Shown here piece after piece: positions 17,331-63,851 of a stretch of 64,000 bases of DNA. Origin of the DNA: an uncultured Paracoccaceae bacterium. GTDB lineage: Bacteria > Pseudomonadota > Alphaproteobacteria > Rhodobacterales > Rhodobacteraceae. A program made the translations under genes and the position numbers. Every line of letters starts with the position of its first letter. The stretch's first letter is position 1. A model generated the notes under the pieces. It saw nothing but the letters and a program-made list of their open reading frames with translations, had not been told where the DNA came from and ran no database searches. The stretch is from NCBI GenBank assembly GCA_947496605.1, contig CANMDF010000005.1, forward strand, positions 1-64,000, given 5' to 3'.

Positions 17331-17588
17331 ATGACCGACACGATGCAAACAGCCATGCTGACCACAGTGAACGCACCGTTCCAGACTTATCTGGATGCGG
17401 AAGCTCTCGCGTGTGCAATTTGCGCTGGTGAGATCACACTTGGCCAAGTCTCGTCGTTTTACACTGAGACAGATGTTGAAGCGCAGAAGGCATTTGCTGC
17501 GGCGCATGGGATTTCTACTGCAACCTTGGTCGAAACTGCGGCCAACTTTTCAAACTGGTCCGGCCAGTCTGTTGCCCTAGCGGCGTGA
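17331..17588 (+). CDS. Small protein, putative antitoxin/partner of the AbiEii-like NTase
   Basis: 85 aa ORF overlapping the start of the downstream NTase gene by 4 nt. Confidence 0.6.
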   Translation: MTDTMQTAMLTTVNAPFQTYLDAEALACAICAGEITLGQVSSFYTETDVEAQKAFAAAHGISTATLVETAANFSNWSGQSVALAA

Positions 17589-18250
17589 GCGCCCCACAAA
17601 TTGCATCGCGATGGCAGGAGCTGCTGGAGGCGGCGTTCGACATCATCGATCACGTCAACAAGGACCATGACCTTCTAACCGAATGGACCTTTGGTGGCGG
17701 AACAGCAATGATGATCCAAATCGACCACCGTGAAAGTCACGATGTCGATCTGTTTCTCGATGATCCTCAACTCCTCCCCTATGTCGAAGCCGCCGTTGCA
17801 GAGATGCAATTCGCTCTTGGTGAAGCCACGTACAACGGGGATGGGACCGGCCATCTCAAGGTCGCTTTCGACGGGATTGGGGAAATCGATTTTATTGTGA
17901 CTGGTCACGTCTCGGACCACCCTACGAGCCTACATGAGATCGAGGGTCGGTCGGTTCACCTCGAAACCGTTCCAGAGATCATAGGCAAAAAGATCCGCTA
18001 TCGCGGGTCGCGTATCCAGCCGCGCGACATCTTCGATATCGCGGCTGCGGTCAAAGCTGGCCAAGAAGCCGAGATCATCGCTGTCCTATCAGAAGTTCCT
18101 GAATATGTCGCAGCCACAATCCAGCGCATCGAAGGGCTTTCCAAGGAATTCGTATCGACCAACATTTCTCAGCTGGTGCTCAGAGACGAGACCCGTGATC
18201 TGGTGGAGACGGCTTTTGACACAACCTTGGCTCTGCTCAAGAAGGTCTAG
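17585..18250 (+). CDS. AbiEii/AbiGii-like nucleotidyltransferase
   Basis: WTFGGGTAMMIQIDHRESHDVDLFLDD (GGTA...HR.S.DVDLF NTase motif). Confidence 0.8.
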   Translation: MSAPQIASRWQELLEAAFDIIDHVNKDHDLLTEWTFGGGTAMMIQIDHRESHDVDLFLDDPQLLPYVEAAVAEMQFALGEATYNGDGTGHLKVAFDGIGEIDFIVTGHVSDHPTSLHEIEGRSVHLETVPEIIGKKIRYRGSRIQPRDIFDIAAAVKAGQEAEIIAVLSEVPEYVAATIQRIEGLSKEFVSTNISQLVLRDETRDLVETAFDTTLALLKKV

Positions 18251-19506: not shown

Positions 19507-19827
19507 ATGGCAATCGATGGAAAAATCACGCGCACTGACGACGACGCATTCACTGGCTGGATCGCATCACTCACCTTCGACGTAGACATCGTTCTTACGA
19601 AGAACCCTCACAAGAAAAAAGAAACGCACCCAGACTTCGAGATCACCACGCGCACCCCTCGCAACCGCCTGATCCGTATCGGATCGGCCTGGGAGCAGAC
19701 CAGCCAAGCGGGCAACGACTACCTCTCGCTGGCCTTTGATGTGAACGGCACCAAGGTTCGCGTCAACGCCCTGCAAGGCGAAGGCAGTGAAGATGGCGAA
19801 TATCGCCTGGTTCCGCTGGCAGGCTAA
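19507..19827 (+). CDS. DUF736-like protein
   Basis: GWIASLTFDVDIVLTKNP...RIGSAWEQTSQAGNDYLSLAFDV. Confidence 0.8.
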   Translation: MAIDGKITRTDDDAFTGWIASLTFDVDIVLTKNPHKKKETHPDFEITTRTPRNRLIRIGSAWEQTSQAGNDYLSLAFDVNGTKVRVNALQGEGSEDGEYRLVPLAG

Positions 19828-20135
19828 CGGCAAAGCAAGGGGCGGCGACAGTCGCCCCTCGCATCCCACAGAAAGCGGTAGGTTCATCAAGCCGGAAGTG
19901 ATCCTGACAATTATCGCCTTCAATCACCGACGAGGGCACCCCCTCAGTTCAAATCGTGCTGCCAAGATGCAGCGGTTGTCTGAACAGCGGTGTTTTGCCT
20001 CTTCATGAGACGCCTAAGTTGTGTGCAGAGCGAATAGGACTGGCAGTTTTTTGTGCTTGCAAGTCACGCATAGCTGCAATGCAGCATTATCATTTGTTGC
20101 AGCGCAGCATTTTGCGTAGGTTGGGACCAGAAATT

Positions 20136-20300
20136 GATGTCAGCTCCTTCTCCTCCCAGAGAACCTGACATCGCAGCAATGGACTTTCATCCTCCTCCCG
20201 AGAGGCCATTGCGTCCAGAATTGGTTGTTGCACCTCCTCCCGCGGCGACTGTTTCACAAACGAGCGGTGTCCTCCCTCCCGAGGCACCGCTCTTTTGCTT
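20136..20300 (+). ncRNA. Tandem hairpin sRNA array with CCUCCUCCC loops (cuckoo/CcsR-like), about 4 units
   Basis: GATGTCAG..CTCCTCCC..CTGACATC (20136-20172), GCAATGG..CCTCCTCCC..CCATTGC (20176-20212), GTTGC.CCTCCTCCC..GCGAC (20227-20249), GAGCGGTG.CCTCCCTCCC..CACCGCTC (20262-20292) followed by T-rich tract. Confidence 0.8.
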
Positions 20301-20328
20301 TTAATGGACACTTTTGGGACCCTACCCT

Positions 20329-20736
20329 TCAGCACCAAGAGGATCGCTGTCCGCCTGAATACCGTCGCGCGAGATCCTCACGGATAAGAATATCGCCGAC
20401 ATTCTGGCCATCGACAAAAAGTGTGCCGAGGCCACGCCCGTATTTGTCGCGGCCAGGCTGTGCGGCGAAGCTGATCTCTGTTGCAGCACGCACCAGGGCG
20501 CGCATCCGTGCTGTCGCCTGATCCCCGCGCAGCTTTTCGCTTTCGCATTCGGCGCGGTAAGTTTCCGGCGTATCAAACCCGGTCAATCGGTAGCGTTCCC
20601 CGTCTACATCAATGGTATCGCCGTCGATGACATAAATCTGGCTTGCGGAGAGTATCTTGGGCTGCGGTCGTTCGCTCAGCCAGTAGATCCCACCCAGCAC
20701 AAGGGCAAACAGCACGATGACATTCTGTGCTCTCAA
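20329..20736 (-). CDS. Thermonuclease (SNase-like) family protein
   Basis: VIDGDTIDVDGERYRLTGFDTPET...DKYGRGLGTLFVDGQNVGDILIREDLAR. Confidence 0.85.
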   Translation of the reverse strand: MRAQNVIVLFALVLGGIYWLSERPQPKILSASQIYVIDGDTIDVDGERYRLTGFDTPETYRAECESEKLRGDQATARMRALVRAATEISFAAQPGRDKYGRGLGTLFVDGQNVGDILIREDLARRYSGGQRSSWC

Positions 20737-21419
20737 GCTGATGTCTCAATTGGGTCTGAGCCATGTTCGGTGCCCTTCCTTACAATCTGCATCTCTTCAG
20801 CTGGAAACGGCTCCAGCAACGCGAGTGCGTCGTCAGTGCTGCCATGCAACCACTGATCGTAGTTTTCTGGCCGCAAAATGACCGGCATCCGCTCTGGATG
20901 GACTGTTTCCGTTAGAGCGTTCCCCGTTGTTGTCAGAAACGTGTGCGTTTCACAGCTCTCGGGCCCATCTTTTGTCTCATATTTCGATGCTTGCCAAAGG
21001 CCTGCGAAAGCAAAGGGGGGGCGCGGCTCATCGCCATGGAGCGCAAACCAATGAAAGACCTGTGGATTGCCGCCCGGAGGCCATTCACAATACGAGCTGG
21101 CAGGCACAAGGCAGCGTCTGTCTTTGAATGCGAACTTCCAGAACCCCGACGTGGCTACCTTGTCTGATCGGGCGTTGTTCCAGACACCTGGTGAGATGAT
21201 ATTTCCCGTCTTCTTTGATTTCTTGGTGCTCCGGAATCCCCAGCTTAAGCTGACCAGTTTGCGCGCGCCGTCTTCATCAAGGCGAACGACCGGAGCATTA
21301 TACTTGGGATAGATCGCGCTGAGCGGTTCCGCATTTCCTAGCTGATCTTGCAACGGCTGGACTTTGAACAGCTGTCGCATGGCTTCGACCGCGGTTGTAT
21401 TTGAGTACAAGTTACACAT
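20733..21419 (-). CDS. SOS response-associated peptidase / HMCES (YedK) family
   Basis: MCNLYSN N-terminal Cys2, RCLVPASSYCEW, TFLTTTGNALTETVHPERMPVIL. Confidence 0.88.
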   Translation of the reverse strand: MCNLYSNTTAVEAMRQLFKVQPLQDQLGNAEPLSAIYPKYNAPVVRLDEDGARKLVSLSWGFRSTKKSKKTGNIISPGVWNNARSDKVATSGFWKFAFKDRRCLVPASSYCEWPPGGNPQVFHWFALHGDEPRPPFAFAGLWQASKYETKDGPESCETHTFLTTTGNALTETVHPERMPVILRPENYDQWLHGSTDDALALLEPFPAEEMQIVRKGTEHGSDPIETSA

Positions 21420-21702
21420 CGATGTCAGTCCCGCTATCCGGCGTACTTTGGAAATTTGGCCGATAATACTGAATTTTGCACATGTCGAACAGCATGGCAT
21501 TGGGATCAGCTGCCTTCGGACACACTTCCCTGGCAATTACAGTTTTCGCGTCAGGTGCGTAGCTGTCCCAGCCAACGAGGTCGCAATACCGCTTGTGTGA
21601 GTAGACACCGATGCGCTGACAGTCCCAGCAAACCAACACGATGGTCTTTTGCGGCAAGTCGCAAACACGGGGACAGGCTTTGATTTTAGGGTTCGGCGAC
21701 AT
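21412..21702 (-). CDS. Small Cys-rich hypothetical protein
   Basis: Overlaps the start of the SOS peptidase gene by 8 nt; CxxC-type pairs. Confidence 0.45.
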   Translation of the reverse strand: MSPNPKIKACPRVCDLPQKTIVLVCWDCQRIGVYSHKRYCDLVGWDSYAPDAKTVIAREVCPKAADPNAMLFDMCKIQYYRPNFQSTPDSGTDIDV

Positions 21703-49403: not shown

Positions 49404-50597
49404 TTAGCCAACTTTATTGCCTTGGCTCCAGACGCCGCGGAGAAGAGGTGTTTCGCCGATTTGGCGCACACGCAGAACATCACCGCGCAATCCTGTTTTC
49501 AAAGCACCACGGTCATGCAACCGCACGGCACTCGCAGGGTTGATGGTCACGGTAGCAATAGCGCGGGGAAGATCATTCCAAATATCTGCAAGGCGGAAGG
49601 CCGACAATAGCAGCGCTGAGGGCACGTAGTCTGACGAGACAATGTCGAGAAGATCGGCTTTTGCGAGGGCCTCTGCCGCAACATTGCCGGAGTGAGATCC
49701 GCCGCGGATCAGGTTGGGTGCGCCCATCATCACGGCAATTCCGTGCACGCGGCAGGCGGCTGCGGCTTCAACCGTTGTGGGAAACTCGGCAAACCCCACG
49801 CCGTTCACCGCTGAGGTTCCAACATGATCGGCCGTGGTATCATCATGGCTGGCCAGAACTGCACCCAGACGGCGGGCTTCTTTCACTGCACCCACCTCGT
49901 GCTTTGCCCCGAGGCGTTTTTGCAGACCCAACAGGGTCTCAACATGTTCGGCAAACTCTGCGTCGTTCATCCCGCGCTTCTTTGCGACGTATGTTTTCAG
50001 CGCGGTCAGATCGCGAAACTGGCGCTGGCCCGGGGTGTGATCCATCAGGCTGACGATGCCGACCCTGTCTGACGATCCGAACGCCGCCAGTTCCTCAAGC
50101 AGCGTCTCTGAACAGATTTCGGCCCGTAGATGGAGGAAATGACTGATCTTGAAATACCCTTGTGCGCGCGCTGCCAAGAGTTCATCCGCCAGCTTTCGGG
50201 CGTAGTCAATGTAGCGTCCTTTGCCGCTATGGATGGACCCCACCCGCATGGCGTCAAACACCGTCGTGATGCCAGTGGACGCCAGCTCAGCATCGTGCGC
50301 GATCAGGGCGGGCAAATGTGGCCAGTCCACCTCTGGGCGCGGTTCGATATGGCGTTCGACATTGTCTGTATGCAGTTCGACAAGACCGGGAATAACGAGA
50401 TCACCGGCACAATCCAGGGCACCGGTTGGGACATGATCCCCTTCAGTAATGTCACAAATGACGCCTTGTTCGATTGTCACCGCACCAGTGAGTATCTGAT
50501 CCTCCAACACAAGCTGCGCATTGGCGAGACATAGGTCGCTTGACACATCGTTGTCACAAGCCTTTGTCAAAGAGGACGTGGGAAAAGGGGAATTCAT
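49404..50597 (-). CDS. phnM: Alpha-D-ribose 1-methylphosphonate 5-triphosphate diphosphatase PhnM
   Basis: VIPGLVELHTDNVERHIEPRP, SLMDHTPGQRQF. Confidence 0.93.
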   Translation of the reverse strand: MNSPFPTSSLTKACDNDVSSDLCLANAQLVLEDQILTGAVTIEQGVICDITEGDHVPTGALDCAGDLVIPGLVELHTDNVERHIEPRPEVDWPHLPALIAHDAELASTGITTVFDAMRVGSIHSGKGRYIDYARKLADELLAARAQGYFKISHFLHLRAEICSETLLEELAAFGSSDRVGIVSLMDHTPGQRQFRDLTALKTYVAKKRGMNDAEFAEHVETLLGLQKRLGAKHEVGAVKEARRLGAVLASHDDTTADHVGTSAVNGVGFAEFPTTVEAAAACRVHGIAVMMGAPNLIRGGSHSGNVAAEALAKADLLDIVSSDYVPSALLLSAFRLADIWNDLPRAIATVTINPASAVRLHDRGALKTGLRGDVLRVRQIGETPLLRGVWSQGNKVG

Positions 50598-51267
50598 GTC
50601 ATACTCTCGATTTGCAATTTACTTTGTGCCGCCGGTAGGGCCCTTGGCCGATTTCGGCGCATCTTGGCTCGGTTGGGATGTTTTGCATGGCTGTGAGGCA
50701 TCCCAGCCCAATATGCCGGGTCTGGATGACATCACGATGACACCGCGCAAATACGGGTTTCATGCGACTTTGAAACCGCCATTTCGTCTGGCAGAAGGGC
50801 AAAATGTGCCGGCTCTGGAAGCTGCCGCATCTGACCTTGCTGTCAGCCTCGCGCCGGCCATATGTGACGGCTTGGAATTGACGACTTTGGGCGGTTTTCT
50901 GGCGCTGACCCCGCAAGACGATATGCAAGCAGTGCGCCGGGTTGCTGGGGCCTGTGTGCGAGAGCTTGATCAATTTCGCGCCCCGGCTTCCCAAGCAGAA
51001 CTCGCGCGCCGTCGCAAAGCCGGTCTGAGCCCGCCGCAAGAGGCGCTGTTGGCGCAATGGGGCTATCCTTACGTGATGGAGGAATTTCGGTTCCACATGA
51101 CCCTGACGGCGCGGCTGCAGCAGGATGACATCGCCGTATGGTCGGCTGCTGTGCGGCGTCATTTGCCGGACCTGCCTAGCCTTTTTGTGTTGGATCAGAT
51201 CGCTTTGTGCGGTGAGCGGGAAGATGGCCGGTTCGAGGTGATCCATCGCTACAAACTCACCGGCTGA
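50596..51267 (+). CDS. DUF1045 phosphonate-cluster protein
   Basis: RFAIYFVPPVGPLADFGASWLGWD...PRKYGFHATLKPPFRL; inside the phn cluster. Confidence 0.88.
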   Translation: MSYSRFAIYFVPPVGPLADFGASWLGWDVLHGCEASQPNMPGLDDITMTPRKYGFHATLKPPFRLAEGQNVPALEAAASDLAVSLAPAICDGLELTTLGGFLALTPQDDMQAVRRVAGACVRELDQFRAPASQAELARRRKAGLSPPQEALLAQWGYPYVMEEFRFHMTLTARLQQDDIAVWSAAVRRHLPDLPSLFVLDQIALCGEREDGRFEVIHRYKLTG

Positions 51268-51809
51268 AGCAGCGCCGCGCCCCGGGCGATGGTCTGAGAC
51301 AGCGGACCATCGTTTGCGAGGTTGATCACCTTGAGCCCAGCCGGCAAGGGCTTGTCAGCCTGGGCAAGGCGTTTGCTGATCTCTTTTTCCGTCTCACGGG
51401 CCCGCGCGGCCAGACGGTGCGCAAGTGTTTCGGGTTTCGCGGTGATGTTGAGAACGACGAAGCGTGGGAAAATCTCGGCCGCTTGGGCCAGAGCCTTGCG
51501 GGAGAAATTGACAAGGCAATCGGTGCCCTTGCCAAGTTGGTATTTGACGGTGATCGGAATGCCGTAGTGCAGGCCATGCGCGCCCCAATACACTGCAAAC
51601 GCCCCATCCTGCACCATAGCTTCAAATCGTGGTACAGACACCGCATCGTAGTCCTCGCCGCCCAAGTCGGGCGCACGTGTGATGACGCGGCGCACCAGGT
51701 GCAAATCGGGTATTGCGTCGTGTAGGCCCGCCATCACGCTGTCTTTGCCAACACCCGATGGGCCGACAACCGCGATGAGGCGTCCCCCGGACTTTGAGGC
51801 AAGCGTCAT
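51249..51809 (-). CDS. phnN: Ribose 1,5-bisphosphate phosphokinase PhnN
   Basis: LIAVVGPSGVGKDSVMAGL, RRVITRAPDLGGEDYDAV. Confidence 0.92.
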   Translation of the reverse strand: MTLASKSGGRLIAVVGPSGVGKDSVMAGLHDAIPDLHLVRRVITRAPDLGGEDYDAVSVPRFEAMVQDGAFAVYWGAHGLHYGIPITVKYQLGKGTDCLVNFSRKALAQAAEIFPRFVVLNITAKPETLAHRLAARARETEKEISKRLAQADKPLPAGLKVINLANDGPLSQTIARGAALLQPVSL

Positions 51810-52489
51810 GCAGCAATTCCGGGGGTAAAGCGGCCGACATCAATTTCGCGATCACAGACGCGGGTACGGGCTGCCTCATCATGGAAAATACCGATAATGG
51901 CCGCGCCGCGCGCTTTGGCGTCCTCGATCAAGGAGAGCACCACCTCGCGGTTCGCAGCGTCTAGGCTCGCGGTGGGTTCATCAAGTAACATCGCAGGGTA
52001 GCTGTGGGCAAAACCACGTGCAATATTGACTCGCTGTTGCTCGCCGCCTGAGAAGGTCGTGGGAGACAAGGACCACAGCCTTTCGGGGATGTTTAATTGG
52101 GTCAGAAGCGCCGATGCGCGGTCCTGCGCTTCGTCTGCCGGTACTCCTAAAGCGCGCAGAGGCTCAGCAACCACATCGAGCGTTGGCACGCGCGGCACCA
52201 CACGCAGAAACTGGCTAACATAGCCTAGCACATCACGGCGCAATTTGATGATGTCGCGCGGCTCAGACCGCACGATGTCCAAACCGCCAATGCGAATTTC
52301 ACCTGCCTGCGTCAGGTAATTGCCGTAGATCATCCGCATTAGCGTGGATTTACCAGCACCAGAGGCCCCAGTGAGCGCGACGCATTCGCCAGGGGCAACC
52401 GCGAAGGACACATCGCTGATCACCTCGATCACGGCACTTCCCTGATTGTGCAGGGTAAAGGTTTTGGAGACGTCTTTGAGTTCAATCAT
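51806..52489 (-). CDS. phnL: C-P lyase ABC-like protein PhnL
   Basis: ALTGASGAGKSTLMRMIYGNYL; FSGGEQQRVNIARGF. Confidence 0.93.
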   Translation of the reverse strand: MIELKDVSKTFTLHNQGSAVIEVISDVSFAVAPGECVALTGASGAGKSTLMRMIYGNYLTQAGEIRIGGLDIVRSEPRDIIKLRRDVLGYVSQFLRVVPRVPTLDVVAEPLRALGVPADEAQDRASALLTQLNIPERLWSLSPTTFSGGEQQRVNIARGFAHSYPAMLLDEPTASLDAANREVVLSLIEDAKARGAAIIGIFHDEAARTRVCDREIDVGRFTPGIAA

Positions 52490-52492
52490 GGC

Positions 52493-53263
52493 TCATACCT
52501 GTAAAACGGAACTGACAAGAAGCTGGCTATAGGCATGCTGCGGATCGTCCAGTACCTGATCTGTCAGGCCCGCCTCGATCACGCGGCCTGATTTCATCAC
52601 CATCAGGCGGTCCGCCAGCAGGCGAACAACAGCTAGGTCATGGGTGACGATGATCGCTGACAACCCCATGTCGCGCACGAGTCCGCGCAGCAGATCCAGC
52701 AGTCGCGCTTGAACCGACACATCAAGACCGCCTGTGGGTTCATCCATGAACACGAGACGCGGGCCCGTGACGAGGTTGCGGGCGATCTGCAAGCGTTGCT
52801 GCATCCCGCCCGAGAATGTTGTGGGTCGATCATCTACACGGGACGCATCAATCTCGACCCGCCCCAGCCAGTCCGTGGCCTTGTCGCGGATATCGCCGTA
52901 GTGACGCTCTCCCACAGCCATCAACCGCTCGCCTACATTGCCGCCGGCGCTGACGCCCATGCGCAGCCCGTCACGGGCGTGTTGGTGGACAAAGGCCCAA
53001 TCGGTACGACCGAGCATCCGCCGCTCCGGCTCTGACATGGTAATTGTGTCGCGGGGGCCGTCGGTGCGGGTGTCGAACACCACCTGTCCCGCATCGGGGG
53101 TCAGATGCCCTGCCATGCAATTAAGCAAGGTGGATTTACCTGACCCGCTTTCGCCAACGATCCCCATAACCTCACCGGGATACAGGTTAAAAGACACATC
53201 GGCGCAACCGATATGCGCACCATATCGCTTGGTGATGCCTTGAACGGAAAGCAAAGGTGTCAT
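52493..53263 (-). CDS. phnK: C-P lyase ABC-like protein PhnK
   Basis: GIVGESGSGKSTLLNCMAG; FSGGMQQRLQIARNLV. Confidence 0.93.
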   Translation of the reverse strand: MTPLLSVQGITKRYGAHIGCADVSFNLYPGEVMGIVGESGSGKSTLLNCMAGHLTPDAGQVVFDTRTDGPRDTITMSEPERRMLGRTDWAFVHQHARDGLRMGVSAGGNVGERLMAVGERHYGDIRDKATDWLGRVEIDASRVDDRPTTFSGGMQQRLQIARNLVTGPRLVFMDEPTGGLDVSVQARLLDLLRGLVRDMGLSAIIVTHDLAVVRLLADRLMVMKSGRVIEAGLTDQVLDDPQHAYSQLLVSSVLQV

Positions 53264-54111
53264 GCTGCGTCCTTTCCTTTGTGGCCCGCTGCCTGGCGCG
53301 CTTCGCAATAGTCGGTGTCAGAGCAGACAAACATCCGCCCACCTAAGTCATCGATGATCAACTCATCCAGATAGCTGTCTGTCGCACCGCACATCCCGCA
53401 GGGGTGATCAGCCTTGGACGCCTCAAACGGATGATCCTCAAAGTCGAGGCTGACCACTTGGGTATAAGGGGGCAGCGCGTAAATTCGTTGTTCGCGCCCC
53501 GCGCCAAAAAGCTGGATTGCGGCCATATCGCCCAGTTTGGGGTTGTCGAATTTGGGGATCGGCGAGGGATCCATTACATAGCGTCCTTCGACCTTAACCG
53601 GATAGGCGTATGAGGTTGCGATATGACCGTGGCGGCTGATATCTTCGTAAAGTTTCACATGCATCAGGCCATATTCTTCAAGGCTGTGCATCTTACGTGT
53701 CTCGCTTTCACGGGGTTCAAGAAAACGCAGCGGTTCGGGGATAGGCACCTGATAAACAAGGATCTGACCCTCGTGCAGCGGTTCTTCGGGGATGCGGTGC
53801 CGGGTCTGGATCACAGTGGCATCACTTGTCGCAGTGGTCGTCGCAACACCTGCTGTCCGCTGAAAGAAAGTCCGTATTGAAACGGCGTTTGTGGTGTCAT
53901 CGGCCCCTTGGTCGATCACCTTGAACGTGTCCTTGGGCGTCAGCACCGCAGCCGACACCTGCACGCCGCCTGTTCCCCAGCCATAGGGCATTGGCATCTC
54001 ACGAGAGGCGAAAGGGACCTGATAGCCGGGAATAGCAAGTCCCTTAAGGATCGCGCGGCGGATCATGCGCTTGGTCTGTTCGTCCAAATAGGCGAAGTTA
54101 TACTCGGTCAT
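53260..54111 (-). CDS. phnJ: Alpha-D-ribose 1-methylphosphonate 5-phosphate C-P lyase PhnJ
   Basis: YNFAYLDEQTKRMIRRAILKGLAIPGYQVPFASREMPMPYGWGTGG; Cys motif CGMCGA. Confidence 0.96.
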   Translation of the reverse strand: MTEYNFAYLDEQTKRMIRRAILKGLAIPGYQVPFASREMPMPYGWGTGGVQVSAAVLTPKDTFKVIDQGADDTTNAVSIRTFFQRTAGVATTTATSDATVIQTRHRIPEEPLHEGQILVYQVPIPEPLRFLEPRESETRKMHSLEEYGLMHVKLYEDISRHGHIATSYAYPVKVEGRYVMDPSPIPKFDNPKLGDMAAIQLFGAGREQRIYALPPYTQVVSLDFEDHPFEASKADHPCGMCGATDSYLDELIIDDLGGRMFVCSDTDYCEARQAAGHKGKDAA

Positions 54112-55196
54112 TCCGCTGCCTCCTGCACCTGTTGCGCACCCGCTTCGCGACGGAGCTTGCGCACCAGTTCCAATTCAGATTGAAAATCGACGTAATGGGG
54201 CAGTTTGATATGTTCTAGGAACCCCGTCGCCTGAATGTTGTCGGCGTGATACAAAACGAATTCTGCGTCCTGTGCAGGTGCACCAACGTTATCCTCGCCC
54301 AATTCTTCCCAGCGTAGCGCGCGGTCGACCAAGGCCATGGAGATTGCCTTGCGCTCGGTCTGGCCAAAGACGAGCCCATAGCCGCGCGTGAACTGCGGCG
54401 GCTCGGTTTTCGAGCCAGTGAATTGGTTGACTGTCTCGCATTCGGTCAGGATCACTTCTCCGATCTCAACGGCAAATCCCAGTTCGGGGATGTCCATCTC
54501 AACCGGCACCGACCCGATCCGCAACTCGCCCACAAAGGCATGGTTGCGCCCGTAGCCGCGCTGCGTGGAGTAGGCGAGGCCAAGGGTAAAACCTTCGTCC
54601 GCGCGGGTCAGCGCTTGCAGGCGCAAGGCGCGGTCGGCGGGCATTTCCAGCGGTTCGCGGGTCAGGTCTGGGGGCGGCGTATCGTCATGGGGGGCCTCTT
54701 CGATCAGCCCTTCGCGGTTCAGGAATTCGGTGACATGCGGGACATTGCCCGTCTCGGCGTCACGGGAGGGCGCATCGGCCACTTCACCATCTGCGGCCAG
54801 TTTGAAATCGAGCAAACGGTGCGTGTAATCAAAGGTCGGACCCAAGACCTGCCCACCCGGCAAGTCCTTGAACGTGGCCGAGATGCGGCGATCACAGGCC
54901 ATAGCGCCGGTATCCACAGGCTCGGACGCCCCAAAGCGTGGCAGCGTGGTGCGATAGGCGCGAATGAGGAAGATCGCTTCGATCAGATCGCCGCGCGCCT
55001 GTTTGATCGCGAGTGCCGCAAGGTCCGGATCATAAAGCGACCCTTCGGCCATGACACGATTGACGGCAAGACTGAGTTGCGCGCGGATTTGCGCGATGCT
55101 GAGTTCCGCAATATCCGTGTCACCGCGGCGTTCTTCGGCGAGCCAGGCATGGGCATTCTCGATTGCCCGCTCTCCACCTTTGACTGCTACATACAT
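54108..55196 (-). CDS. phnI: Carbon-phosphorus lyase complex subunit PhnI
   Basis: MYVAVKGGERAIENAHAWLAEERRGD; phn gene order. Confidence 0.95.
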   Translation of the reverse strand: MYVAVKGGERAIENAHAWLAEERRGDTDIAELSIAQIRAQLSLAVNRVMAEGSLYDPDLAALAIKQARGDLIEAIFLIRAYRTTLPRFGASEPVDTGAMACDRRISATFKDLPGGQVLGPTFDYTHRLLDFKLAADGEVADAPSRDAETGNVPHVTEFLNREGLIEEAPHDDTPPPDLTREPLEMPADRALRLQALTRADEGFTLGLAYSTQRGYGRNHAFVGELRIGSVPVEMDIPELGFAVEIGEVILTECETVNQFTGSKTEPPQFTRGYGLVFGQTERKAISMALVDRALRWEELGEDNVGAPAQDAEFVLYHADNIQATGFLEHIKLPHYVDFQSELELVRKLRREAGAQQVQEAAE

Positions 55197-55197
55197 G

Positions 55198-55800
55198 TCA
55201 GGATGCTCCTGCGTGCGCGCGCGCTGGAACACTTGAGCGCGAAACTTCGGTTGAGCGGGGCAAGGCCGCGAGGCGTTCGCCACAGGTGAAAATGAAATCC
55301 AGCCCCAGCGGGAACAGCCTTCGGTTGGCCTGAAACGCCTCCACTTCCGGCAAGGAAAGCGCGGCGTGATCCTTGATGCCCGGACCGGTCAGAGTTGCAC
55401 CCGAGGTGACGAGCGCGTCGCATTCGACGATCAGCGTAGCCGAGCGGTCAGGATACTCGGACGTGCCGATCGGATAGACCGCAAGCGGCACCAGCGCGTC
55501 CCATTTGCCCACCGCGAACATGCAATGCGCCGGGCCAACAAACGGGGCACCTGTGTGAAAGGACAGCCACGCCCGCACCGCATCGCAATCCATGTCGCCC
55601 GCCAGATAAATTGGTGTTTCCGTATCGCAGAGCGTCAGCAGAACAGCGCCCATCGCGGGCGACACAGGGGCAGGGGGTGCGGCCCCTTCGATATCCCGAA
55701 GGGTGCCGGGGCGGGCCATGGCCTCCATCACACTACGAAAGGCGTGGGCTGACTGGGTGGCTGGATCCGCAAAGCCGCCGGACAGGGTGTTTGCCTGCAT
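55198..55800 (-). CDS. phnH: C-P lyase subunit PhnH
   Basis: GGFADPATQSAHAFRSVMEAMARPGTL. Confidence 0.94.
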   Translation of the reverse strand: MQANTLSGGFADPATQSAHAFRSVMEAMARPGTLRDIEGAAPPAPVSPAMGAVLLTLCDTETPIYLAGDMDCDAVRAWLSFHTGAPFVGPAHCMFAVGKWDALVPLAVYPIGTSEYPDRSATLIVECDALVTSGATLTGPGIKDHAALSLPEVEAFQANRRLFPLGLDFIFTCGERLAALPRSTEVSRSSVPARAHAGAS

Positions 55801-56255
55801 CAGTCTTCTCCTCGGGTCATGGTAAAGAAATCAACTTTTGTCGCGGCTGCCTTGGCCGCGCGGGCGGCTTTCATGGTGGCCATCCCTGCCTCCAGAGGCT
55901 CAAGGACCGCCTCGCGCAGCCTACTTGCCATTGCGGTCTGCATAAGCGCATCGACCAGAGCGGCGACCTCGGCATCTGCTTTGCGACGCCCTTGAATATA
56001 GCTGTGCCCGACTTCGCCAGTTTCCAACGTCAAGGCGCAGCGGGTAATCGTCATCTCGCCCAGATTGAAGGGTGCGCCAGTGGCACCAGCGCGCGCGCGG
56101 ACCATCGTGCTGCCAATTTCCGGCGCACGCAGCCACGTAAAGGCAGGGCGCGATATTTCAGCATCCAACAGTGCGGCCACACGGCCTTCGGGCGCTTTAG
56201 CCAGCAGACCCATCCACGCCTTACGGGGATTATTTTCGCTCACAGTGTCTTTCAT
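55800..56255 (-). CDS. phnG: C-P lyase subunit PhnG
   Basis: RKAWMGLLAKAPEGRVAALL; phn gene order. Confidence 0.92.
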   Translation of the reverse strand: MKDTVSENNPRKAWMGLLAKAPEGRVAALLDAEISRPAFTWLRAPEIGSTMVRARAGATGAPFNLGEMTITRCALTLETGEVGHSYIQGRRKADAEVAALVDALMQTAMASRLREAVLEPLEAGMATMKAARAAKAAATKVDFFTMTRGED

Positions 56256-56336
56256 CTCGACAACTTGTCTCTTTCCTATACAACTATACATATCTTATCA
56301 TATTGATGTCCTCATGACAGAAGAGTTTTGTGAAAT

Positions 56337-57056
56337 TTGCGTGACAGTTCTGACAAAACCCCAATCTGGAAGGCCATCGCTAACGCATTGCGCAGCGATT
56401 TGGCCGAAGGACGTTATGCGCCGGGGGACAAGTTGCCGACCGAGGCTGCGCTGGCAGACCGCTTTGGCGTGAACCGCCACACGGTGCGCCATGGGATTTC
56501 TGTATTGGTCGAGGAAGGGCTAGTGCGCACCCGTCGCGGTGCAGGGGCCTTTGTCGCCGCCACGCCGACCGACTATCCGATTGGCAATCGGGTGCGGTTC
56601 CACGAAAATCTGATTGCCGCAGGCCGCAGACCCGAAAAGCGCATGCTCGCGTTGGACGAGCGTACTGCGACGATTGGCGAGGCTCAGGCCTTGCAGATCG
56701 AGGCAGGCGATCCAGTCTGTGCTTATCATGGGCTTTCATTGGCAGATGGTCAGCCGATTGCCGTATTTGAAAGCCTGTTTCCACTGGCGCGCCTTGGAGG
56801 GATTACCGCTGCATTGAAGGAAACAAGCAGCGTCACACAAGCTTTAAGTGTTGTAGGCATCGACGACTATACGCGTGCCTCAACCCGCCTGACCGCAGTT
56901 CGCGCCACGGCAACCCACGCGCTGCTGTTGCATGTTGCCGAAGGCGATCCGCTGCTGAGATCGTCGAGTCTAAATCATTCCCAAGGTGGGCTGCCCGTAG
57001 AATACGGCCGCACTTGGTTTGCAGGTGACCGGGTAACGCTGACGCTTGAAGCGTAG
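56337..57056 (+). CDS. phnF: GntR/HutC family phosphonate regulator PhnF (TTG start)
   Basis: KLPTEAALADRFGVNRHTVRHGISVLVEEGLVRTRRGAGAFV; divergent from phnG. Confidence 0.9.
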   Translation: MRDSSDKTPIWKAIANALRSDLAEGRYAPGDKLPTEAALADRFGVNRHTVRHGISVLVEEGLVRTRRGAGAFVAATPTDYPIGNRVRFHENLIAAGRRPEKRMLALDERTATIGEAQALQIEAGDPVCAYHGLSLADGQPIAVFESLFPLARLGGITAALKETSSVTQALSVVGIDDYTRASTRLTAVRATATHALLLHVAEGDPLLRSSSLNHSQGGLPVEYGRTWFAGDRVTLTLEA

Positions 57057-57181
57057 GGCTTGCTCATCAGCACAGCACCCGTAACGGGGCTGGCTTGCCG
57101 ATGGTCTTGGAATGTCTGATCGGTCTTAAAGCTGTCGTCGTCTGTATCGCGTGTTACAAAACCTTCATTTTCTAGATCTCT

Positions 57182-57205
57182 ATAATTCATATATTCGTGA
57201 ATTAT
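57182..57205. promoter_or_regulatory. Perfect palindrome ATAATTCA-N8-TGAATTAT over the arsR start codon, putative ArsR operator
   Basis: Read directly; last two bases are the AT of the start codon. Confidence 0.65.
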
Positions 57206-58052
57206 GGAAACATTGATTCCCAACCGCCTTTCGACACTTGGCCATCCCCAACGGCTGGCGCTATTCCGGCTGCTGATGCGACGCTATCCCGACTGCGTTC
57301 CGGCGACAGAATTGGCGCAGGCACTCGGACTAAAGCCGAATACACTGTCGACCTATGTGAACGCGCTGATGCAAGCCGGTTTGATCAGCCAAGAGCGTAT
57401 TGGCACGTCCTTGCGCTATGCAATCGACATGGATGCCACCCGCGAGACCGTCGATTACCTTCTGCACGACTGTTGCAGGGGGAGGCCTGAAATTTGCGCC
57501 CCCAATGCCTATTCCGCGATTCACGGAGACATTCAAATGGCCGACCGAAAATTCAACGTCCTGTTCATTTGCACAGGCAACTCTGCACGGTCCATCTTTG
57601 CCGAGTCCATCTTGCGCGACCTCGCCGGTGATCTTTTTATTGCCTACTCGGCAGGCATCAAGCCGCGCTCGGAACTGAATTCGTTTGCACTCGAGGTGCT
57701 GGAACAGAAGGGGCATGATGTATCAGTCCTTCGTTCCAAGAACATTTCTGAGTTTCAAGGGGCGGATGCCCCAAATTTCGATTTCGTCTTCACCGTCTGC
57801 AATCAGGCGGCCAATGAAGAATGCCCCTCGTGGCCCGGCCAGCCCATCAACGCGCATTGGGGCCTGCCTGATCCGGTCAAGGTTGATGGTTCTGATGCCG
57901 AAAAGAGTCTCGCCTTTCACCAAACCTACGGCGCGCTAAGGAACCGCATGATCGCGTTTTCGGCTTTGCCCTTTGCTTCGCTGGACCGGTTGTCGTTGCA
58001 AAAAGCTGCCGACGGGATTGGCCAATCTACTGACAAAGGATCACAGATATGA
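57204..58052 (+). CDS. ArsR regulator - LMW-PTP-type arsenate reductase fusion
   Basis: N-terminal ArsR winged helix ([19 protein letters not shown]-like), C-terminal [20 protein letters not shown]. Confidence 0.9.
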
Positions 58053-59047
58053 CTGTTTACGCACTCAACGGCCTGGGCCGCATCGGCAAGCTGGCCTTGA
58101 AGCCGTTGCTGGAACGGGGGGCAAAAATTGCATGGATCAATGACGCGGTGGGTGATCCCGAGATGCATGCCCATCTGTTTGAGTTCGACACGGTCCACGG
58201 CCGCTGGAAGGCCAATTTCGCCCATGATGAGGGTAGCGTGACAATTGACGGCCAGCGTCTGCCGTTCATTGGCACCCGCGACATCGCCGCGCTGCCGCTG
58301 GAGGGTGTTGATGTGGTGATCGACTGCACTGGTGTCTTCAAGACAGAGGCAAAGCTCGCCCCCTACTTTGACGCAGGCGTAAAGAAGGTGGTTATATCTG
58401 CGCCGGTCAAGGACGGTGACGCCGCCAATATCGTATACGGCGTGAATCACGACATCTACGAAACGGACCGCCACCGCATTGTGACCGCAGCAAGTTGCAC
58501 GACCAATTGCCTTGCGCCAGTTGTAAAGGTCATTCACGAAAACCTGAGGATCAAACACGGCTCTATCACAACGATCCACAATGTGACCAATACACAGACC
58601 ATTGTGGACCGTCCGGCGAAAGACCTGCGCCGTGCGCGCTCTGCCCTGAATTCCCTGATTCCGACAACCACTGGTAGTGCAACCGCCATCACGCTTATTT
58701 ATCCGGAACTGACGGGTCGCCTGAACGGTCATGCCGTTCGTGTGCCTCTACTTAACGCGTCGTTGACCGATTGCGTCTTCGAGGTAGAACAAGAGACCAC
58801 TGCAGAAGAGGTCAATGCACTGTTTAAGGCAGCATCGGAAGGGCCGTTGAAGGGTATCTTGGGCTATGAGGAACGCCCACTCGTTTCCACTGATTACACC
58901 AATGATGAAAGATCGAGCATTGTCGATGCGCCTTCTACCATGGTGATCAATGGCACGCAGGTGAAGGTCTACGCGTGGTATGACAACGAGATGGGTTATG
59001 CGCACCGCCTGGTGGATGTGGCCTGCTTGATTGGGGACAGTCTGTGA
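58049..59047 (+). CDS. ArsJ-associated glyceraldehyde-3-phosphate dehydrogenase
   Basis: [20 protein letters not shown]; 4-nt overlaps with both neighbours. Confidence 0.92.
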
Positions 59048-60306
59048 CCGAAAGCGCTGCGCGCCCCGAAGGGCTGTCGGCCTATATCGCGGTCACGGCG
59101 GCCTACTGGGCATTCATGCTGACCGACGGCGCATTGCGCATGCTGGTGCTGCTGCACTTTCATACCCTGGGTTTCTCTCCGGTCCAGCTAGCCTATCTGT
59201 TTGTCCTTTATGAAATCGCGGGCGTCATCACCAATTTGTGCGCAGGCTGGATTGCCGCGCGGTTTGGCCTGACGTCGACGCTGTATGCAGGGCTAGGGTT
59301 GCAAGTGCTGGCTCTGCTGGCCTTGGCGCAGCTTGATCCTACTTGGGCGATTGGCACATCGGTCGCCTTTGTAATGCTTGTGCAGGGTGCAAGCGGCGTG
59401 GCCAAGGACCTTGCCAAGATGTCGTCCAAATCCGCCGTCAAATTGCTCGCGCCGTCACAGGACGGCGCACTTTTTCGCTGGGTGGCACTTTTGACAGGAT
59501 CCAAGAACATGGTGAAGGGCGCGGGGTTTCTGCTGGGCGCTGTATTGCTGGCGACACTTGGATTTGTCTGGGCTGTCTTGGGCATGGCCGCGATCCTTGC
59601 CGCAATTCTGCTGGCCGTTTTGATTGCCATGCCGCCGGGGCTGCCGAAGGGACGCAAGGACACAACATTCTCCGAGGTGTTTTCCAAGTCGGCCAACGTT
59701 AACTGGCTTAGTGCGGCACGGGTATTCCTGTTCGGGGCGCGGGACGTCTGGTTTGTCGTCGGCATTCCGATCTATTTCTACGCTGTGCTGTCGGATGGCA
59801 CTACGGCAGGCAACCGCGCTGCATTCTTCATGATCGGGACGTTCATGGCCCTGTGGGTCATCCTCTATGGCCTTGTTCAGGCCAACGCGCCCCGCATCCT
59901 GCGCGCAAGCGGGCGGTCCGAGGCGGACCTGATTGGCGCGGCCCGCACATGGGGCTGGGGCCTTGCTGCGGTTCCGGTGATGCTGACATGCGCGGCTGTC
60001 ACTGCCACGGAGCCGCAGATGTGGCTCACCCTTACGCTTGTCATCGGACTGTTGATTTTCGGGGCGGTCTTCGCGGTAAACTCATCGCTCCATTCCTACC
60101 TGATCTTGTCCTTCACAAAGGCAGAGCGGGTCACGATGGATGTGGGCTTTTACTACATGGCCAATGCGGGTGGGCGGCTGGCCGGAACCTTGCTGTCCGG
60201 GCTGACATATCAAGCAGGTGGACTGGCGCTGATGTTGGGCACTGCGGCTGGAATGGTTGCAGCGTCGGCTATCACGGTGGGTTTCTTGAAGCTGGAGAAT
60301 GGATAG
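59044..60306 (+). CDS. arsJ: Organoarsenical efflux MFS transporter ArsJ
   Basis: 12-TM MFS; directly follows GAPDH in an ars operon. Confidence 0.9.
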
Positions 60307-60327
60307 AAATGATCGGATCGCGGCCCT

Positions 60328-61200
60328 TCAGACCTTGTATCGCTCTTCAAACTCGAAACGATAGGGCGAATGGACAATACTTCGGGGCGAAAGCCCGTAA
60401 GTCTCGTTTCTGAGAAAGTCCATCATCCCCTGCGCATCATCGGAGAATGTGGCAATCGTTGCAGGCGAGATCGGCCCGCCGATTGCGATCTCTACGGGTT
60501 TGTCGGCCCTGCGACGAAATTCCTTGAGCAAGAGCGCCACGCGCAGATTATAATGGATATGGCTGGCAAGCTGAAACAATCGCGAGTTCTGACCGTTAAA
60601 GAAAACCGGAACCACGGTCGCATTTGATTTGGTAATCATGCGCGCCGTGAACCGACGCCAGCCGGGATCAAATGGCCGCTGGAACGGTTTTGCTGCGGTC
60701 GATACGGTCCCACCGGGAAAGACGCCTATCGCGCCGCCTGCCTTAAGAAATTCCAAGGCCTTCGCGCGGGTCTCCAAGTTCAGCTTTACCGCGTCTTTAG
60801 TGTTGTCAAAACTGATGGGTAGAATAATCCGGTTAAGATCCGGCGCGTCCTGAAACACACTATTTGCCAGAATGCGGAAATCACCACGCCGCGTGGACAG
60901 CAGGTATCCCATTATGAGCCCGTCAAGGATACCAAAAGGATGATTTGCGACGACAACCAATGGACCCTCCGCAGGAATGTCCGCGATAGCTCCCGAAACC
61001 ACATCAAGGCTTAACCCATAGCGGTTGATCATGACTTCCCAGAAACTGCGGCCCTGCGCAATTTCGGCATCATAGTCTCGCGCCCGCTGGATCAGATGAA
61101 GCCGGCCGGTTGCATTCTCGATCAGCTTGATGACTGCTCGACCAGAGCGTGATTGTGCGGACTTGGCATAGGAAACCTGAGAACGGTCACGTCTATCCAT
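60328..61200 (-). CDS. Lysophospholipid acyltransferase (PlsC-like)
   Basis: VVVANHPFGILDGLIMG (NHxxxxD) and GVFPGGTVS. Confidence 0.85.
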   Translation of the reverse strand: MDRRDRSQVSYAKSAQSRSGRAVIKLIENATGRLHLIQRARDYDAEIAQGRSFWEVMINRYGLSLDVVSGAIADIPAEGPLVVVANHPFGILDGLIMGYLLSTRRGDFRILANSVFQDAPDLNRIILPISFDNTKDAVKLNLETRAKALEFLKAGGAIGVFPGGTVSTAAKPFQRPFDPGWRRFTARMITKSNATVVPVFFNGQNSRLFQLASHIHYNLRVALLLKEFRRRADKPVEIAIGGPISPATIATFSDDAQGMMDFLRNETYGLSPRSIVHSPYRFEFEERYKV

Positions 61201-61270
61201 CTGCTTTGACCCTTATGATAAGACTGCCATTTCCTAGCGGCGCAACGCTACAACTTTGTGACGTCTGGTG

Positions 61271-61924
61271 TCAGATCGTGCCCTCGTAGCGCTCCAGAAA
61301 TTCCTCGGCGCTGAGGTTGCGAAAATCATCAAGCGCGCCGCGCAGGCGTGCGTGCGGCCAATCCCACCATGCAAGCTCCAAAAGCCTGTCAACAATCCGC
61401 GGTTCAAAACGAGGACGCAGCGGGGCAGCGGGGATGCCTGCCACGATCATGTAGGGAGGCACATCCTTTGTCACAATTGCACCGCCTGCGATAACTGCCC
61501 CATGGCCGATGTTCACTTCGGGCCGGACCTGCGCGCTATGGCCAAGCCATGTATCATGACCAATCACCGTGCGACGGCTACGCCTGTGGGCGAACCAAGC
61601 GTCATCGTGATCTGCATCTTCGAAATAATCGGCCGAGCGATAGTGAAAGTGATGCAGGCTCGCTTTTTCCATCGGGTGGTCTGTGGCGCCGATCCGCACG
61701 AAGGCTGCAATGTTCGAGAACTTGCCCACGGAGGCATTGGCAATGTCGGCAAATCGGTCGCAGTATGAATAGTCATCCATTTCGCAATGCGCCAAGCGGC
61801 TACCGCGTCCGATTTCCACATACTGTCCGAATGTTGCATCTGTGATCTCGCAATCGGGATGAATAAAGGGGACATCCGGTTTTAATCTGGTCGCATTCAA
61901 AACGCTCGTTCCTCGCCATTCCAC
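61271..61924 (-). CDS. Phosphonate-cluster hexapeptide acetyltransferase (DapH/chloramphenicol-acetyltransferase-like)
   Basis: Left-handed beta-helix repeats; TWLGHSAQVRPEVNIGHGAVIAGGAIVTKDVPPYMIVAGIPA. Confidence 0.88.
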   Translation of the reverse strand: MEWRGTSVLNATRLKPDVPFIHPDCEITDATFGQYVEIGRGSRLAHCEMDDYSYCDRFADIANASVGKFSNIAAFVRIGATDHPMEKASLHHFHYRSADYFEDADHDDAWFAHRRSRRTVIGHDTWLGHSAQVRPEVNIGHGAVIAGGAIVTKDVPPYMIVAGIPAAPLRPRFEPRIVDRLLELAWWDWPHARLRGALDDFRNLSAEEFLERYEGTI

Positions 61925-62538
61925 CGAAAGAACTTGCCGGTATGCTCAAGGGTAATGCCTTCTGCCAAAGCGACGATCCCTGCCGCGACCTCACACGGGG
62001 TAAGATCGGCCTCTGCCCCACCCATATCGGTTTGCACCCAACCGGGATCGACAAGCACGACGGCAATGCCGTCAGGGTGCAAGTCCGTCGCCAGGCCTTG
62101 CATGACCTTATTTACCGCAGCCTTGGAGGCGCGGTAGGCAATACGATCCGATTTGGCATAACCCATATATGACATCTGACTTGAAACTGTCAGGATACGG
62201 GGCCTGCTGCTACGCCGCAAATGATCCAGACAGGCCGTGCTGACGGCCAGAGCACCAGCGACATTGACCGCAAATGTATAGGCCATTGCAGTCCAATCCA
62301 TATCGGTTGTAGGGCTGTCCGGTCCGATAATACCTGCATTATTGATGACAATATCAATCGGATGGTTGATCGCTGATATCGCGTCCCGAACTTGCTGGGG
62401 ATTGCTGACATCAAAGATGACATCGCCACCCTGTCCCGCACGCGAGGCGCGCAGCACGTCATGCCCGCGATCCCCTGCACGTGCAGCCAGTGCCGCGCCA
62501 ATCCCCCGGTTGCTTCCCGTAATCAGGATGCAGGCCAT
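61897..62538 (-). CDS. SDR family oxidoreductase
   Basis: ILITGSNRGIGAALA; YRASKAAVN. Confidence 0.88.
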   Translation of the reverse strand: MACILITGSNRGIGAALAARAGDRGHDVLRASRAGQGGDVIFDVSNPQQVRDAISAINHPIDIVINNAGIIGPDSPTTDMDWTAMAYTFAVNVAGALAVSTACLDHLRRSSRPRILTVSSQMSYMGYAKSDRIAYRASKAAVNKVMQGLATDLHPDGIAVVLVDPGWVQTDMGGAEADLTPCEVAAGIVALAEGITLEHTGKFFRWNGEERAF

Positions 62539-63851
62539 TAGTCCTTGCGCCCGATCAGCTTGCCGCGCAGCCAGCCCGAGAACCAGTCCATGAACATCAC
62601 CATGGCGATGATCAGGACGATATAATAAGCGACTTCTTCCCAGTCTTTCTGGGTCTGGATTGCTTGGGTCAGCATAAGGCCGATGCCACCGCCTGTGATG
62701 GCGCCGATGATGGTGGCAGAGCGGGTGTTGGATTCAAGGAAGTAAAGGATTTGGGCCAGAAGCACCGGCACAATCTGCGGTATGACGCCAAAGCGATAGC
62801 GTTGGAGCGGCTTGGCTCCGGTCGAGGCGACGCCCTCGATTTGCTTTTGATCTACGTTTTCCAAAGCCTCCGAGAAGATTTTGCCAAAGGTGCCGGTATC
62901 CGTGATCAGGATTGCCAATGCGCCAGTAAGCGGGCCGGGGCCAAAGGCACGGGCCAGGACCACCGTCCAGATCAGCGCATCGACACCACGCACAAAATCG
63001 AACAGGCGGCGGGTGGCAGCGCGTACCAACATCAACGGCGAGAACCGTTTGGCTGCGAGAAAGCCCAACGGCAGGGCGATGATGGCTGCCCCCATCGTGC
63101 CAAGGAAGGCCATCAGGATCGTCTCGCCAATCGCCCAAGCCACATCCTTGTGTCGCCACATGGCGTTGTTCCACCAATCGGACACTGCCCCAGTGATATT
63201 GCCGCGCGCAGGGTCGATCTGGTCGCCAAACAGTATCTTGGCCAAGGACTGTCCGTAGTAGGGGCTGTCGAACGTGAACCAGAACAGCTCCCAACCGGGG
63301 AAATAATTGAAAACCTCGGTCCGAGCGCCCGTCAAGGTTATGCGGCCTTCGGCCGTGGTGATGCCCACGCGGCGGTCCGAGGCAGAAATCCAATCGGGCA
63401 GATCATCGGGCAGGTTGGTCGTGACGGTGCGGCCCTCGGCCTGCGCCTCGATCAGTTGGAAGCCGGGAATTTCGATCTCGGTCCGGTTGTCTGGCAAATA
63501 GCGCACAATGATGTCACCGCCCAGATCAATGATGATGACTTCATCCCCCCTCACCCAATCGGGGCGCTGGCCCTCCGGGTAGGTACCCTTGCGTTCGCCT
63601 TCGACGGCATAGGTCACATCTCCCGATCGGTTGTCCCGGGTGACATGCACCTTGTGGGACCAGCTGTCGGAAGCCAGCGTCACGGCGTTTTCCATATTGG
63701 CGCGTCCTGCAAGACCAGGCAGGTCAAACGCGAAGAAGATATAGACGAAATAAACTGCGATGACCGCCGGGATGCCAAAGCCGATCAAGCGCTTGCGCTG
63801 AAAGAGCTTTTCGGCCTCAAACTTGGTCGCGTCCAGATCAATAGTGGTCAT
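62538..63851 (-). CDS. phnE: Phosphonate ABC transporter permease PhnE
   Basis: Permease EAA-like loop EALENVDQKQIEGVASTGAKPLQRYRFGVIPQIVPVLLAQ. Confidence 0.92.
   Translation of the reverse strand: MTTIDLDATKFEAEKLFQRKRLIGFGIPAVIAVYFVYIFFAFDLPGLAGRANMENAVTLASDSWSHKVHVTRDNRSGDVTYAVEGERKGTYPEGQRPDWVRGDEVIIIDLGGDIIVRYLPDNRTEIEIPGFQLIEAQAEGRTVTTNLPDDLPDWISASDRRVGITTAEGRITLTGARTEVFNYFPGWELFWFTFDSPYYGQSLAKILFGDQIDPARGNITGAVSDWWNNAMWRHKDVAWAIGETILMAFLGTMGAAIIALPLGFLAAKRFSPLMLVRAATRRLFDFVRGVDALIWTVVLARAFGPGPLTGALAILITDTGTFGKIFSEALENVDQKQIEGVASTGAKPLQRYRFGVIPQIVPVLLAQILYFLESNTRSATIIGAITGGGIGLMLTQAIQTQKDWEEVAYYIVLIIAMVMFMDWFSGWLRGKLIGRKD

Follow-up and report, generated by a model that had tools for sequence, protein, structure and literature searches.

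A tandem hairpin array between convergent plasmid genes

The stretch of DNA analyzed here (the window; 64,000 nucleotides) belongs to contig C5 (84,461 bp) of a 3.47-Mb genome. Its forward strand carries four tandem hairpins with CUCCUCCC-type loops at positions 20136 to 20292, which a hairpin script also recovered. Hairpins 1 (20136 to 20172) and 2 (20176 to 20212) are each 37 nt long; the former has a perfect 8-bp stem (GATGTCAG/CTGACATC) and the anti-Shine-Dalgarno (aSD) motif CTCCTCCC at 20150 to 20157, and the latter has a 7-bp stem (GCAATGG/CCATTGC) and the motif CCTCCTCCC at 20191 to 20199. The same motif recurs at 20233 to 20241 in hairpin 3 (20222 to 20251; 10 bp including G-U). Hairpin 4 (20262 to 20292; GAGCGGTG/CACCGCTC plus inner pairs), with the motif CCTCCCTCCC at 20271 to 20280, also provides the stem of a predicted intrinsic terminator and is followed by the T-rich tract TTTTGCTTTT (20293 to 20303). 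A first-pass annotation of this DNA had described four consecutive hairpins with aSD-like loops, the first two of 37 nt each with unrelated stems, and a T-rich tract behind the last one. All of this was borne out by the sequence, the script, and the predicted fold.

The minimum free energy (MFE) of positions 20126 to 20305 was -67.9 kcal/mol, compared with -42.5 ± 3.8 for shuffled sequences (z = -6.66; 0 of 200 shuffles were as good), and the predicted MFE structure consists of four separate stem-loops. Exposure of the motif loops, as first proposed, is fully predicted for hairpins 2 and 3, where the motifs are wholly looped out, but only in part for hairpins 1 and 4, where they are partly paired within the apical stem; we count the latter against a small-RNA (sRNA) reading. 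The window as a whole contains five CTCC[CT]?TCCC cores, four of which fall inside the array, and at least three such cores within 170 bp did not occur in any of 300 dinucleotide shuffles of the window. Further genomic CCTCCTCCC sites (C1:234779 and C3:67283) were set aside, as they are isolated and apparently lie within coding sequence.

The neighbors of the array are convergent (Pfam assignments): a DUF736 gene (19507 to 19827, forward strand) lies upstream, outside the RNA, and a gene for an SNase-like nuclease (20329 to 20736, reverse strand) lies downstream, followed by a gene for an SRAP protein (SOS response-associated peptidase; 20733 to 21536, reverse strand). Further Pfam names near the array are RPA (RepA), ArdC, and an AbiEii-type protein. 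The ends of C5 share an identical terminal overlap of 77 bp, so the contig is most likely a closed plasmid. Relaxase, VirD4, VirB-like, and ParA-like proteins were recognized on it by eye from open reading frame (ORF) translations, not by search. The overlap and the replication and conjugation genes support the earlier statement that the array is plasmid borne. The AbiEii-type nucleotidyltransferase is encoded at 17585 to 18250 (PF08843; E = 1e-14), and the ORF upstream of it (17331 to 17588) could be its partner. By eye, phosphonate utilization (phn-like) genes at 49404 to 63851 and an ArsR/arsenate reductase-like/GAPDH/MFS cluster at 57204 to 60306 appear to be plasmid cargo.

Relationship to known hairpin sRNAs

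An Rfam scan of the window at the gathering threshold gave no match; the ar14 model (RF02344) aligned to positions 20129 to 20257 of the forward strand with 58.2 bits (E = 6.4e-10), 0.6 bits under its gathering score of 58.8. We count this slight shortfall against the sRNA reading, but it carries little weight here, because most matches in the family stay below the cutoff: ar14 matches were found in 123 of 150 genomes of the family and passed in only 20, and arrays on other Rhodobacterales plasmids score 43 to 57 bits. The CcsR1 model (RF02791) gave 17.5 bits on the array against a cutoff of 65.3. The covariance scan suggested at first pass for a cuckoo/CcsR assignment thus spoke for ar14, just below gathering, but not for CcsR1.

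Members of the cuckoo/ar14 family consist of two to four hairpins side by side, which carry CCUCCUCCC-type loops on variable stems; all of these traits were found in the window array, whose loops 1 and 4 are variants (CUCCUCCC and CCUCCCUCCC) of the family loop. In rhizobia, sRNAs with two, three, and four hairpins were described in 2011, with copies on every replicon; among these Rhizobiales ar14/cuckoo sRNAs, SmelA075 has three hairpins and SmelA099 has four, and stand-alone units with chromosomal and plasmid copies have already been described (PMC3927594). The array shares with them its consecutive hairpins, loops, and variable stems but differs in its Rhodobacterales plasmid host, its stem sequences, and the small Rfam shortfall. 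The CIN1 locus of Rhodobacter sphaeroides, which comprises CcsR1-4 and the DUF1127 protein CcaF1, has the same loop motif, tandem hairpins, and an end terminator (PMC10253847); here, the array differs by having no DUF1127 gene, a promoter abutting hairpin 1, and a low CcsR1 score. Because both of these groups were described before, the array adds a member to a known kind of RNA. By Rfam score, it is closer to ar14/NfeR1 than to R. sphaeroides CcsR1. Membership in the cuckoo family, as proposed at the outset, is supported by structure, motif, the ar14 match, and a CIN1-type promoter.

The absence of a DUF1127 ORF upstream had been noted in the first-pass annotation and in fact extends to the entire plasmid: neither PF06568 nor a locus-built HMM found DUF1127 anywhere on it, including as the cotranscribed gene typical of CIN1. 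The main genome of the host contains a canonical CIN1 locus at C1:85143-85455 (reverse strand), in which a 71-amino-acid DUF1127 protein is followed by seven hairpins; this array passes ar14 gathering with 67.0 bits. Two more DUF1127 genes are present in the host genome, on C2 and C4.

A CIN1-type promoter block directly upstream of hairpin 1

Three elements precede the array on the forward strand. A LysR-type (T-N11-A) box, TGCAAGTCACGCAT (TGCA-N6-GCAT), lies at 20058 to 20071, roughly -71 to -58 relative to the inferred start; the palindrome GCTGCAATGCAGC, which alignments identify as a conserved piece of the CIN1-type promoter block, lies at 20073 to 20085; and sequence and alignments suggest a -35/-10 promoter, TTGTTG-N17-TAGGTT, at 20094 to 20122, from which transcription would start at approximately 20129. 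When the plasmid region served as a DNA query against genomes of the family, positions 20051 to 20125 or parts of them matched three other genomes, with 77 to 86% identity to promoters preceding DUF1127 arrays. In those genomes, about 300 bp, including the DUF1127 gene, separate the block from the first hairpin downstream of it; in the window, the same block sits immediately 5' of hairpin 1. This block and the one found ahead of DUF1127 in CIN1 loci of other Rhodobacterales are homologous, so a CIN1-type promoter is fused straight to the hairpins. The block is common to the array and to the CIN1 loci compared here, which come from Rhodobacterales other than R. sphaeroides. The -10 element of the array (TAGGTT) is weak (it reads TATGCT in the homologue L068), which we count against the sRNA reading. 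For the RpoHI/RpoHII-dependent transcription that characterizes CIN1/CcsR loci, the window offers only promoter-like hexamers.

In motif and position, the TGCA-N6-GCAT box matches the LsrB box of NfeR1 (SmelC397), which lies at -72/-57 and at which LsrB binds and activates in Sinorhizobium (PMC10746234). Of 29 CIN1 upstream regions, 27 contain an exact copy, compared with 0.7% of shuffled ones; many regions hold two copies, of which the script reports one, so an identical position of each copy is not implied. LsrB has been described as unique to Rhizobiales (PMC11975290), which we also count against the sRNA reading. That the box is common to rhizobia and to Rhodobacterales CIN1 promoters, where LsrB is reported to be absent, poses a testable question about the regulator. 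The palindrome CTGC-N3-GCAG was also considered as a site for PhaR (PHA-granule regulator) and set aside in favor of the LysR-type box, the only one of the two with published evidence in this sRNA family. Palindromes of the GCATAGCTGCA type occur without downstream hairpins at five loci (L044, L045, L047, L054, and L057), so the promoter box may control further genes as well.

Conservation among close homologues

Homologous arrays with equal spacing are present in an uncultured Litoreibacter contig (L062), whose plasmid region is 95% alike over 5.1 kb, and in a more distant Rhodobacteraceae contig (L068). The window array and L068 differ at 23 of 180 nt, and all 36 motif positions are identical (hypergeometric P = 0.004). 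Pairing was kept in 97% of paired cells, with seven one-sided pair-keeping changes, in an alignment of three sequences, too few rows for the shuffle control to discriminate. We found no compensatory double changes among these three close homologues, a further point against the sRNA reading.

The ORF at 20134 to 20304 could encode a small proline-rich protein of 56 amino acids, or the hairpins could be bidirectional terminators between the convergent DUF736 and SNase genes, with no sRNA in either case. The frame is open in the window array, L062, and L068, but the comparison of the window array with L068 showed 15 nonsynonymous and only 2 synonymous codon changes, and the protein-coding reading was rejected on this substitution pattern. 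Neither a protein nor terminators would be expected to keep near-identical loop motifs on unrelated stems across loci, and a conserved promoter block lies directly upstream. We consider both versions extremely improbable.

Alternatively, the array may be a decaying fragment of CIN1 that is neither expressed nor selected on the plasmid. The loss of DUF1127 and the weak -10 element would fit such a remnant, as would a DNA search that found the array in none of 18 same-genus genomes. The promoter box, motifs, and stems are nevertheless all retained in L062 and L068, the terminator is intact, and stand-alone arrays recur on unrelated plasmids, so that we regard a silent remnant as very unlikely.

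Arrays on other plasmids

Among 30 loci chosen by ar14 score (L009 to L038), L019 and L027 also have no DUF1127 and a CIN1-type promoter directly before the hairpins; L024 has DUF1127, and L038 was counted neither way. A DNA search with the 491-bp array region gave no match in PLSDB or phages. Leads on plasmids were obtained with a promoter-only search at a loose E value; most were weak singly and were accepted only with adjacent hairpins, and those in Leisingera and Aminobacter (L074 and L078) were dropped, as no array was present. A PLSDB search with the Phaeobacter array returned 26 plasmid records, and those listed were all from Rhodobacterales. We examined 16 Rhodobacterales plasmid loci (L069 to L073 and L079 to L089), nearly all with two or three hairpins, and detected DUF1127 at none of them. 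By script, L070 and L088 have a single strong hairpin, and L070 shows a second aSD core. The promoter block was not clearly shared at 4 of the 16 loci (L086 to L089). Because these sets were collected via likeness to stand-alone arrays, they do not measure the frequency of DUF1127-less arrays on plasmids; a narrow tblastn search with the host CcaF1 found only six plasmids with DUF1127.

At 5 of the 16 loci (L071 to L073, L079, and L080), on plasmids of Phaeobacter, Sulfitobacter, Ruegeria, and Paracoccus, the array occupies one conserved slot before a strawberry-notch gene. These arrays resemble the one in the window in having a variant of the promoter block, no DUF1127, an intergenic backbone position, and a T-rich tract after the last hairpin; they differ in having two hairpins instead of four, in the strawberry-notch neighbor, and in being unannotated. 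On these plasmids, which are of the rep_cluster_392/517 type, a hypothetical gene borders the slot on its other side. A search for similar plasmid copies, suggested earlier, has thus turned up stand-alone arrays in unannotated gaps of other Rhodobacterales plasmids. The idea of a stand-alone, mobilized array gains support from these many copies and, in the window, from the missing DUF1127, the array's own promoter block, and the circular plasmid, which carries relaxase, type IV secretion system (T4SS), and VirD4 genes. On two Sulfitobacter plasmids (L081 and L085), the array is directly 3' of pcaF (3-oxoadipyl-CoA thiolase).

A four-hairpin array was matched by 503 PLSDB plasmid records from Rhizobiaceae. 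On the R. leguminosarum, R. brockwellii, A. vitis, and pTi plasmids that we examined, DUF1127 lies upstream of this array and dinB after it; on an S. americanum plasmid, there was no DUF1127 within the stretch read. Five rhizobial loci (L075, L077, and L090 to L092, including pTiAg57) have four hairpins beside dinB, usually with DUF1127 upstream and with SRAP or imuA nearby. An SRAP gene also stands just past arrays on Yoonia and rhizobial plasmids; its place after the array in both the window and the Yoonia plasmid might point to a connection with SOS genes.

Proposed mechanism and origin

We interpret the array as a conjugative-plasmid-borne, trans-acting sRNA of the cuckoo/ar14 type that lowers translation through aSD loops (probability of about 0.85). 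Computation established the array, its fold, the homology of its promoter, the missing DUF1127, and its conservation; transcription, start site, processing, targets, and the direction of origin are inferred. SRNAs of this family are stress-regulated transcripts that silence mRNAs by aSD pairing. A CIN1/NfeR1-type promoter, responsive to stress or nutrients, would initiate the RNA roughly 7 nt 5' of hairpin 1, and hairpin 4 would terminate it, giving an RNA of about 170 nt. Host RNases may cut it between the hairpins, perhaps aided by a host CcaF1-like DUF1127 protein. The RNA or its pieces would expose four redundant aSD loops, which could base-pair with ribosome-binding sites of the GGAGG type in mRNAs of the host, and possibly of the plasmid, and reduce their translation. 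In this way, the plasmid would add to or reshape the cuckoo response of the host. By analogy, the array most likely works in the same way as NfeR1, whose aSD loops silence ntrB, with genetic support (PMC10746234).

Instead of silencing mRNAs directly, the RNA might act as a decoy that titrates a factor of the host's chromosomal cuckoo RNAs, such as a CcaF1-like DUF1127 protein, Hfq, RNase E, or a GGAGG-containing RNA. A DUF1127-less array in a host that has DUF1127 and seven hairpins is compatible with this idea, as is the finding that CcaF1 of R. sphaeroides acts on CcsR RNAs in trans (PMC10253847). The mRNA-pairing loops are, however, the most conserved part of the array, and NfeR1, with the same architecture, silences mRNAs via its loops; a decoy is therefore unlikely. 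For the origin of the trans-acting sRNA, a CIN1-type locus that subsequently lost DUF1127 is the simplest and most likely scenario; the less simple alternative is that an older stand-alone unit gained DUF1127.

From Rhodobacterales, these RNAs have been described as part of a chromosomal operon with DUF1127. A literature search, known to be incomplete, found no description of the stand-alone form at a recurrent backbone site of Rhodobacterales plasmids together with a CIN1-type promoter. As judged from their sequences, the window array and the other plasmid loci point to plasmid sRNAs that lack annotation and could rewire translation in the host. A more speculative reading, less likely than not, is that conjugative plasmids of Alphaproteobacteria recurrently include stand-alone cuckoo arrays as a functional part of their backbone, copying the stress-responsive promoter and the aSD loops of the host. 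If so, plasmids would bring a global translational regulator of their own making into the host network, easing their carriage or tuning transfer genes of their own.

The full GGGAGGAG complement before an ATG was found in four cases in the host outside the array itself. This scarcity counts against the sRNA reading, and targets would need shorter matches. A target scan of the plasmid yielded GGAGG sites at a VirD4-like gene (34314) and at a gene of the T4SS region (44278), both as candidates only.
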